Origin: Candidatus Lithacetigena glycinireducens
Lineage (GTDB): Bacteria > Coprothermobacterota > HKB111
Assembly: GCA_018725485.1 (NCBI GenBank)
Contig: QLUP01000020.1
Span: 1 to 11,530, forward strand
Length of the DNA stretch: 11,530 bases
Direction of reading: 5' to 3'
Shown here: piece by piece, positions 9,100 to 11,530 of the stretch
How the letters are laid out: each line of letters begins with the position of its first letter
Position numbering within the stretch: the stretch's first letter is position 1
Notes under the pieces: generated by a model
What the model saw: only the letters and a program-made list of their open reading frames with translations
Told to the model about the DNA's origin: nothing
Database searches by the model: none
Translations under genes and position numbers: made by a program

Positions 9100-10242
9100 G
9101 TGGAGATTGAAAATAAATTATTCCAGTTAGGTGAATCTGCGCGTTTTGACCTCTGTAATTCACGCAGAGAAAGAGAAAGTAGCTTTTCTTACCTTATCCA
9201 CCCGGCAGTTTTGCCTGGTGGTGGATGCATTAATTTATTAAAGGTTCTCTACACCAACGAATGTAGTGGAGAGTGCTTTTATTGTGCTAATTACTGCAAC
9301 TCGCCTAAAAAAAGATTAAGTTTTAAACCCGACGAATTGGCAAAAATCTTCTTTAGTTTTTATCAGCAAGAATATGTTAAAGGTCTCTTCTTAAGCTCTG
9401 GATTGGGATTAGACCACAATCAAACTCAACAGGAAATGATTGATACCATAGAAATATTGAGAAAAAAATTCATGTTTAAAGGATATATACACCTGAAGAT
9501 TTTACCAGGGGTAAAAGAAGACCTGATAATTCGTGGTTTAGAATTAGCTGATAGGGTGTCAATCAATCTGGAAGCCCCTTCCGATTACCGACTGAAAATG
9601 CTTTCCCGAAAAAAAATAAATTATGATGATTTACTGGGAAAAATAAGCTTTATTAAAAACACCATAGATAAAAGGCACTTAAAAAAAGACCAAACTACCC
9701 AGTTTGTAGTAGGAGCAAGCGAAGAAAGCGATAAAGAAATATTGTCTCGTACTTTTAATCTCTATCAGGATTTCCAGCTTAAAAGGGTTTACTACTCTGC
9801 CTTTAAACCTCTACCTTCTACCCCTTTTTCTAATAAAGAAGCCACCCCCTTAATTAGAGAAGTCAGGCTCTACCAGGCAGACTTCTTATTAAGAGAATAT
9901 AACTTCCACTTAAGGGATATTTTGTTTGGCTCTCAGGATACCTTGAATAGAGAAATTGACCCCAAGTTAATGTATGCCAGGCTTCATCCTGAGATTTACC
10001 CAGTAGAAATAAACAAAGCTGATTACTTTTCCTTATTGAAGGTTCCCGGTATTGGTCCTAAATCTGCTAAAAGAATCATAGAAAACAGGAGAAAAAACAC
10101 TTATAAAACTACCAATGAACTAAAAAGTACTGGTGCTGTCTTGAAAAGAGCTTTACCTTTTATCACCCTTAATGGGAAAATACCTGAAAAACTTAATGAA
10201 GTTACTAACCAATTAAAAATGGAATGGAGGGAAGCTATATGA
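9100..10242 (+). CDS. Putative DNA modification/repair radical SAM protein with C-terminal helix-hairpin-helix
   Basis: 380 residues, cytoplasmic. The radical SAM cluster motif CxxxCxxC is CSGECFYC (C55, C59, C62), which binds a 4Fe-4S cluster and S-adenosylmethionine. Following blocks are GLFLSSGLGL (95-104), KGYIHLKILPG (127-137), DRVSINLEAPS (151-161), TTQFVVGA (199-206), LKRVYYSAFKP (227-237) and VRLYQADFLLREY (255-267). At 315-327, VPGIGPKSAKRII is a classic DNA-binding helix-hairpin-helix. This order matches the family described as 'putative DNA modification/repair radical SAM protein' (TIGR03916), recalled from memory rather than searched. Its reaction is unknown. The usual linked uracil-DNA glycosylase-like partner is not visible here. 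The start is GTG at 9100 with AAGGT about 11 bases upstream, slightly far. Its stop overlaps the purB start as ATGA, so translation of the two is probably coupled. Confidence 0.87.
   Translation: MEIENKLFQLGESARFDLCNSRRERESSFSYLIHPAVLPGGGCINLLKVLYTNECSGECFYCANYCNSPKKRLSFKPDELAKIFFSFYQQEYVKGLFLSSGLGLDHNQTQQEMIDTIEILRKKFMFKGYIHLKILPGVKEDLIIRGLELADRVSINLEAPSDYRLKMLSRKKINYDDLLGKISFIKNTIDKRHLKKDQTTQFVVGASEESDKEILSRTFNLYQDFQLKRVYYSAFKPLPSTPFSNKEATPLIREVRLYQADFLLREYNFHLRDILFGSQDTLNREIDPKLMYARLHPEIYPVEINKADYFSLLKVPGIGPKSAKRIIENRRKNTYKTTNELKSTGAVLKRALPFITLNGKIPEKLNEVTNQLKMEWREAI
10226..10231 (+). promoter_or_regulatory. Ribosome binding site deciding the purB start
   Basis: GGAGGG lies seven bases before the ATG at 10239 and within the end of the radical SAM gene. 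It supports 10239 over an in-frame ATG at 10224, which lies just before this site. The 10239 start also gives the usual PurB N-terminus MIKRYTRPEM. Confidence 0.75.
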
Positions 10243-11456
10243 TAAAACGATATACCCGACCTGAGATGGGTAAAATCTGGGAAGATACTTATAAGTATCA
10301 AAAATGGCTTGAGGTGGAAATAGCTGTTTGCGAAGCCCAGTTTGAACTGGGTAACATACTTGAAGAATCCCTGAAGATAATTAAAGAAAGAGCTTCTTTT
10401 GACATTAATCGCCTTGAAGAAATAGAACAGGTGGTTAAGCATGAGGTAATAGCTTTTTTAACTGCTGTTGGAGAAGCAGTTGGACCAGAGGCTAAGTATA
10501 TTCATATGGGATTAACCTCTTCTGATGTGATTGATACCAGCTTGGCTCTCCAGATGAAAGAATCAGCAGAACTAATAATTAAAGGGTTGCTGGTTCTTAA
10601 AAATGTCTTACGGGAAAAAGCTTTCCAGTACAAGAATACGCCCTGCATCGGCAGAACTCATGGAATTCATGCTGAACCGATGGTTTTAGGTTTGAAATTT
10701 ACCCTCTGGTACGAAGACCTCAAAAGATGCCTTATCAGAGTGGAACAGGCAAAAGAGATTATTAGTTTCGGTAAAATATCAGGACCTATTGGCACTTTTT
10801 CCAGTATATCACCGGAAGTGGAAGAAATTGTCTGTCAGAAACTTGGCTTAAAACCTGAGCCAGTCGCTACGCAGGTAGTTCAAAGGGATAGACACGCTGA
10901 ATTTATGCTTGCTCTGGCTCTCGTAGCTTCCTTTTTGGAAAAGATAGCTCTGGAAATCAGGCACCTTCAAAGAACTGAGGTGAGAGAAGTAGAGGAACCA
11001 TTTAGCTACGGGCAAAAAGGCTCTTCGGCTATGCCCCATAAAAAAAATCCCATAGGTTCTGAAAATATCTGTGGTCTGGCGAGGTTAGTTCGTTCAAATG
11101 CTTTTGCTTCCCTGGAAAATATAGCCCTCTGGCATGAAAGAGACATCTCTCATTCCTCAGTGGAAAGAGTGATAATACCTGATAGTATCATACTGGTTGA
11201 TTATATGATAAACAGGTTAACAGGAATTCTGCAAAACCTGATTATCCACCCGGAAAGGATGCTGGAAAACCTTGAAGTAAGTTTTGGTTTGTACAATTCT
11301 CAGAAAATACTCCTCGCTTTGACTGATAAAGGTCTTAGCAGGGAAAGAGCTTATGAAATAGTTCAAAAAATTGCTCTTGAATGCTGGGAAAAAGGTACAA
11401 GTTTTAAAACTGCCCTTTCTAACCATAACGAAATCATTAAATATCTTACAGTGTGA
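10239..11456 (+). CDS. purB: Adenylosuccinate lyase, C-terminus apparently shortened
   Basis: Cleaves adenylosuccinate to AMP and SAICAR to AICAR in purine synthesis; cytoplasmic homotetramer. From ATG 10239 it has 405 residues against about 430 in typical bacterial relatives. Catalytic histidines are in place: H68 (VKHEV), H89 (YIHMGLTSSD) and H141 (GRTHGIHAEP). The fumarase/lyase signature GSSAMPHKKNPIGSEN (261-276) supplies the mobile-loop serine. SGPIGTFS (181-188) and HERDISHSSVER (299-310) are also present. The C-terminal domain is normal through GLSRERAYEIVQKIALECW, but it stops at NEIIKYLTV. The family usually continues there with an acidic helix and a YYLKHVDxIFER-like end, so about 25 residues are missing. 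The stop codon directly abuts a short direct repeat (11457 onward), which suggests interruption by a repeat or an assembly join. It overlaps the radical SAM gene by four bases. The active site is complete; stability of the shortened protein is unknown. Confidence 0.93.
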   Translation: MIKRYTRPEMGKIWEDTYKYQKWLEVEIAVCEAQFELGNILEESLKIIKERASFDINRLEEIEQVVKHEVIAFLTAVGEAVGPEAKYIHMGLTSSDVIDTSLALQMKESAELIIKGLLVLKNVLREKAFQYKNTPCIGRTHGIHAEPMVLGLKFTLWYEDLKRCLIRVEQAKEIISFGKISGPIGTFSSISPEVEEIVCQKLGLKPEPVATQVVQRDRHAEFMLALALVASFLEKIALEIRHLQRTEVREVEEPFSYGQKGSSAMPHKKNPIGSENICGLARLVRSNAFASLENIALWHERDISHSSVERVIIPDSIILVDYMINRLTGILQNLIIHPERMLENLEVSFGLYNSQKILLALTDKGLSRERAYEIVQKIALECWEKGTSFKTALSNHNEIIKYLTV

Positions 11457-11530
11457 AGAATGGGGTCAACTCTATTTTAATTCTCTTTAGAATGGGTTTA
11501 GAATGGGGTCAACTCTATTTTAATTCTCTT
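11457..11530. repeat. Two exact 31-bp direct repeats, 43-bp period, running off the window
   Basis: Copies at 11457-11487 and 11500-11530 are identical (AGAAT, then GGGGTCAACTCTATTTT, then AATTCTCTT, with the T of AGAAT directly before the G run). They are separated by 12 bases that themselves repeat the start of the unit (TAGAATGGG). ATTCT (11480-11484) and AGAAT (11489-11493) can pair into a small hairpin. No other copy occurs in the window. The first copy begins immediately after the purB stop codon. The pattern resembles dispersed GGGGTC-containing repeats I associate with REP/IS200-type elements, but no transposase is visible, so that link is inference. Confidence 0.75.

Follow-up and report, generated by a model that had tools for sequence, protein, structure and literature searches.

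In the sequenced cells, the 3′ end of purB was probably joined to a dimer of a TIR-type mobile repeat (core GGGGTCAACTCTATTTT) by insertion or deletion, and a TGA triplet now serves as its stop codon. The analysed window is the whole of contig C113 (11,530 bp) of a draft MAG, here G000, with a size of 1.24 Mb in 204 contigs, a completeness of 83% and a contamination of 0.7%. G001, the congener, is the only other genome of the same genus. Contigs of G000 shorter than 3 kb read as N, and the genome searches cover the readable contigs only. The G000 sequence used directly consisted of short stretches, most of them contig ends. The features of the purB end are the following:

10239–11456, + strand: purB, adenylosuccinate lyase, 405 codons plus TGA (TIGR00928, 516 bits)
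11454–11456, + strand: TGA stop at the boundary, the first base without homology to the congener purB
11454–11530, + strand: terminal k-mer node of the assembler, 77 bp, which is the overlap length at contig ends
11457–11487, + strand: repeat copy 1, 31 bp, 100% identical to copy 2 (repeat search)
11462–11478, + strand: conserved core GGGGTCAACTCTATTTT in copy 1, belonging to a dispersed TIR-type family
11488–11499, + strand: 12-bp spacer, TAGAATGGGTTT, itself like the repeat head (from the sequence)
11500–11530, + strand: repeat copy 2, in direct orientation, running to the contig end (100% identity, repeat search)
11505–11521, + strand: conserved core GGGGTCAACTCTATTTT in copy 2, belonging to the same dispersed TIR-type family

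The likely start of purB at 10239 opens the family-consistent sequence MIKRYTRPEM(G). With 516 bits, the product passed the equivalog cut-off of TIGR00928 (326), which identifies it as PurB, and this was the sole purB in G000 as searched. Directly upstream, at 9100–10242, lies a radical SAM protein with a helix-hairpin-helix, TIGR03916-like but just under the cut-off; its frame nearly touches that of purB.

The 3′ end of the gene reads AAA TAT CTT ACA GTG TGA. An earlier, sequence-only reading had the protein following the family to KYLT at residue 403, with one more codon before the stop. The single extra residue was confirmed as V405, the final one, but KYLT occupies residues 401–404. The G001 PurB is 88% identical across all 405 residues and runs on from KYLTV into GEINSLFDFNEYLKYVDYIYNRVFN. 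At the DNA level, ACAGTG is followed by TGAAGAATGGGG in the window and by GGAGAAATTAAC in the congener (beginning TGAAG vs GGAGA). The same reading placed the stop exactly at the edge of a direct repeat, and this held to the base: the TGA ends at 11456 and the first repeat copy starts at 11457. From there the sequence is AGAATGGGGTCAACTCTATTTTAATTCTCTT, then the 12-bp spacer, and then the identical 31 bases up to the contig end. A frameshift concealing the tail was rejected, the downstream bases being repeat and not purB in any frame.

Comparison with relatives, a check that the earlier reading had proposed, gave a uniform picture. In 109 of 109 aligned relatives, T404 is followed by 23–39 residues (median 27), as against one in the window; the early stop leaves the gene about 26 codons short of the family. 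None of the 109 ends at the window's residue, which favors truncation, and on the same count a naturally short PurB lineage was rejected. TIGR00928 is covered from 1 to 411 of 436 positions, compared with 436/436 in G001. The Pfam domain ADSL_C is incomplete, with positions 1–51 of 79 covered in the window and 79/79 in G001. In the AlphaFold model of a full-length relative, the lost part folds into three short helices (405–411, 414–418, and 421–429), with pLDDT >90 except for the last residues. The predicted absence of some 25 residues thus stood, but they form three short helices and not one final helix.

The rest of the gene looks intact. Between the window and G001, dN was 0.065 and dS 0.589 over the 405 codons, and this low dN/dS indicates that the remainder of purB has not decayed. 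Residues 381–405 are looser (72% amino-acid identity between the congeners), with divergence on both branches, and the remaining codons showed no window-specific acceleration near the purB end relative to the congener. On these substitutions, purB appears free of long-standing decay. The model of the truncated 405-residue chain had a mean pLDDT of 90.8, a monomer value that carries no information on activity, and it matched PurB structures with Z ~41 over residues 2–405. Like the bacterial PurB structures of TIGR00928 (1C3U and 2PFM), the window PurB has an intact catalytic signature and fold; those proteins end at about residue 431, whereas the window PurB ends at 405. The solved PurB of the archaeon Pyrobaculum aerophilum (1DOF) is of similar length, with 403 aa, and aligns to model residues 1–391, although it is only 34% identical to the window PurB and its last 20 residues fall outside the alignment. 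Judging by the length of 1DOF, the PurB family may accommodate a short C-terminus. The earlier suggestion that an essential gene had been disrupted found no support. The truncation could have some effect on PurB activity; the literature on C-terminal deletion of PurB yielded nothing useful. The unusual part is a core enzyme without its folded tail, and overall this is only modestly surprising. As a point against the proposed truncation, one would expect selection to act on a tail that is folded and conserved in a core enzyme.

The earlier reading had left open whether a mobile repeat entered purB or the assembler joined purB to a repeat incorrectly. To the second of these belongs an assembly artefact in which an intact purB was joined, through chimeric reads or strain collapse, to a repeat from elsewhere in the metagenome, the true tail being normal. 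The junction lies 77 bases from the contig end, in a repeat that breaks other contigs, and the assembly is a draft MAG of 204 contigs and 83% completeness, all of which would suit such an artefact. Both the tail and purA may lie outside the bin or on the unreadable contigs below 3 kb. The earlier reading had also proposed looking for the tail in the rest of the genome; searches with the DNA and with a 25-aa peptide found no intact copy in the readable contigs of G000, which speaks against an artefact. PurA, encoded by the convergent neighbor in the congener, was likewise not found in the readable contigs of this 83%-complete genome, an absence that counts for little given the unreadable short contigs.

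A comparison of 103 contig ends of G000, 16 of which read as N, turned up three genuine overlaps between ends (C159/C169, C119/C15, and C2/C127). All three measured exactly 77 bases and so reveal de Bruijn assembly at k = 77. The window's terminal node starts at 11454, which is the purB/repeat edge and also the base where homology to the G001 purB breaks; two independent lines, the homology break and the 77-base node, place the boundary at one base. The last 77 bases are the first 77-mer lying wholly inside the repeat, so the terminal node is common to another context. Since the node starts at the repeat edge, the purB/repeat junction lies within unbranched k-mers (78-mers), and a blind mis-join is unlikely. 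A k = 77 graph makes false joins only at 77 shared bases, and purB and the repeat share none; moreover, every 78-mer crossing the junction must have had enough read coverage to survive cleaning. The exact break of G001 homology at 11454 also favors a repeat replacing the tail over a mis-join. With these arguments, we consider an artefact unlikely, and of the two possibilities first raised the mobile repeat is the better supported, through its dispersed family and the break at 11454. The contig would end 77 bases on since a multicopy repeat left the assembler unable to choose a continuation. As it stands, the finding mainly accounts for where the contig ends.

A mixed population would give the same contig if some cells or strains carried the purB/repeat junction while others kept the intact tail, the contig being the commoner or the only assembled branch. 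A second left-hand context of the shared 77-mer must exist, and it is absent from the readable part of the bin; across the phylum, the matches to the 77-mer 11454–11530 were short, partial, and confined to the two congeners. The 0.7% contamination figure of the MAG does not address strain mixture. The readable contigs hold neither an alternative purB tail nor a second purB, and we regard such a mixture as decidedly improbable. Returning to the repeat-joined purB, we infer that the junction is present in the chromosome, although the evidence is a single observation at the end of a contig, in a draft of 83% completeness. The feature is genuine and explicable in our judgment, real-looking but unproven.

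The length of 31 bp assigned to the repeat follows from the contig end, which cuts copy 2. Its only internal palindrome is a 5-bp hairpin, with a fold z of −0.06 relative to shuffles; a hairpin forms only from an inverted pair, as on C247 of G001 (z = −8.4). A literature search on the repeat sequence itself found no relevant paper, and the exact repeat was not found in viral contigs. In G000, the core GGGGTCAACTCTATTTT occurs on C113 (twice), C130, C159, and C169, and in a weaker form on C1. Counting the purB dimer once and the overlapping C159/C169 once, these make four places, three of which lie ≤110 bp from a contig end, as compared with 3.6% of the genome (p ~2e-4). The core is also present in the congener G001. 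In a search of 386 genomes, the only others with multiple copies were G215 (14 copies) and G345 (13 copies), which belong to one genus outside the window's phylum; a reversed control pattern gave 0–1 matches.

The family is linked to transposase genes. The sister repeat GGGGTCAGGTCT (GGGGTCAGGTCTTCATT) is abundant in G001, where two full-length Y1 transposase genes each lie between inverted GGGGTCAGGTCT copies. The one tested, on C207, passes the NCBIfam model REP_Tyr_transpos, 'REP-associated tyrosine transposase', and its C-terminus matches HTH_38 (E 2e-5) and HTH_23 (E 6e-5), both slightly under the Pfam cut-offs. The window variant, in inverted copies, flanks a 50-codon transposase remnant in G215 (MTRPLRIIVPNIPFHVLDRGNNRQ...); over 36 residues, this remnant has 72% identity with another one, on C148 of G000. 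The repeat at purB is a member of a dispersed, transposase-associated family.

Further transposase loci were noted in G000. The remnant on C148 (6661–6927; L138:1474–1740) is a truncated RAYT gene with a degenerate repeat before it and an integrase-like fragment after it. Contig C128 opens inside a RAYT-like gene (1–125; L037:1–125; MTRPLRIEYENACYHITSRGNEK...) beside a sister repeat. An apparently intact IS200/IS605-type pair, consisting of a Y1 transposase gene overlapping an OrfB/TnpB-like gene, is located on C173 (279–1836; L135:279–1836).

A terminal inverted repeat of an IS1595-type insertion sequence (or its MITE), instead of a TIRYT/RAYT repeat, might also have jumped into purB. In G001, an inverted AATGGGGTCAACTCTATTTTC pair 1.09 kb apart surrounds Zn_ribbon_IS1595 and DDE_Tnp_IS1595 remnants, and this pair interrupts another ORF. 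An inner inverted pair, GGGGTATCCACTYGACTCACG, lies nearer the transposase and looks like the element's own ends; the core is dispersed in G215 and G345, where it flanks the Y1 remnant; and the IS1595 transposase was not found in the readable part of G000 (contigs below 3 kb read as N). This origin is thus highly improbable. The G001 locus lies on C235 at 11420–12860 (L048:1200–2640): an ORF running in at 11721 is apparently interrupted by the 1.09-kb IS1595-like element, which has the window's repeat core in inverted orientation at its ends.

If the repeat at purB belongs to tyrosine transposases, HUH enzymes of the RAYT/TIRYT kind would move or amplify such repeats, and one of them may mobilize the window variant. 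Two routes could have led to the present purB end. Either the repeat dimer inserted at codon 406, or a repeat already present immediately downstream set the limit of a deletion that took out the last 26 codons; the order of events could be that of either insertion or deletion. By both routes, the TGA triplet at the left edge of the repeat would become the purB stop, and the resulting PurB would have 405 residues and lack the three small C-terminal helices.

Stop codons at the edge of this repeat recur among the retrieved loci, from which alone the pattern is drawn. The stop ends exactly 5 bp before GGGGTC in the window purB and in pbp2, argF, and nrdJ of G215; pbp2 and argF are both complete to the family end. 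Most genes abutting a repeat are full length, and the window purB differs in having lost family sequence. In G215, an NrdJ-type ribonucleotide reductase gene (C93, L297, minus strand, ~1500–1530) ends 5 bp short of the repeat. Neither side of the repeat at that locus encodes an equivalent of the 200 C-terminal residues of the window's homologue, and by this comparison of sequences the G215 NrdJ may be another protein truncated by this repeat.

The congener purB (G001 C220, L007:1402–1430) ends in the sister-family repeat GGGTTCAGGTCTTCATTCTTGACA, which encodes the end of the G001 PurB by adding LGSGLHS and the stop. The same gene end is reached by two different repeats in two species. GatB in G001 (C146, L150:225–243) ends in ELGSGLHI*, a repeat-encoded peptide that is the same as in the congener PurB. 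An element supplying a stop codon, as raised in the earlier reading, has precedents: such repeat-supplied stops have been published for REPs (PMC3733652) and are seen at several other genes here.

More broadly, TIR-type repeats of RAYT/TIRYT transposases might land preferentially at or just before stop codons and, in these lineages, reshape the C-termini of core proteins again and again, an idea that we hold to be rather doubtful. If true, preferential landing would account for the 26-residue loss in PurB, the short added tails on the congener PurB and GatB, and possibly the shortened G215 NrdJ, and the repeats would be a natural source of new protein ends. Were the purB junction confirmed, a core metabolic gene would clearly have received a new stop codon from a small transposase-associated repeat, and the dispensability of the PurB C-terminal helices could then be asked directly.

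Two known systems are comparable with the window repeat. REP elements and REPINs with RAYT are likewise short repeats, dispersed and associated with HUH tyrosine transposases, and mostly sit downstream of genes, their termini often supplying the stop codon of flanking ORFs (PMC3733652). These GTAG-tagged elements differ in that neither copy of the window repeat carries a GTAG or CGTC tag and one copy forms no palindrome; a classical GTAG REP was rejected on these grounds.

In sequence, the window repeat resembles the terminal inverted repeats (TIRs) of tyrosine transposases of the TIRYT/RAYT kind. TIRYTs are RAYT-like tyrosine transposases with long flanking TIRs, the heads of which have the motif GGGGWSAS in common (Di Nocera et al. 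2013, PMC3733652). Some of their repeats form moderately abundant families occurring in dimers or clusters (PMC3733652), and TIRYTs have tentatively been equated with subclass 2.1, the members of which have C-terminal HTH domains (PMC6006769). The repeats found here share with TIRYT/TIRtron repeats the short, GGGGTCA-headed unit and the dispersal in moderate numbers, as single copies, dimers, and clusters (four places in G000, more in G001, and 13–14 in G215/G345); for the sister repeat, there are also inverted copies around full-length Y1 transposase genes, with a weakly matched C-terminal HTH in the protein tested. The sister repeat (GGGGTCAG) fits GGGGWSAS at 8/8 positions, whereas the window variant (GGGGTCAA) misses the final letter (7/8). 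Also unlike the TIRYTs, the exact window variant was found only with a transposase remnant and with no intact transposase; both differences count against the proposed origin. The window's direct dimer differs further in sitting in a coding region and removing part of it. With these likenesses and differences, the repeat at purB would extend the little-studied TIRYT repeats to a further lineage.
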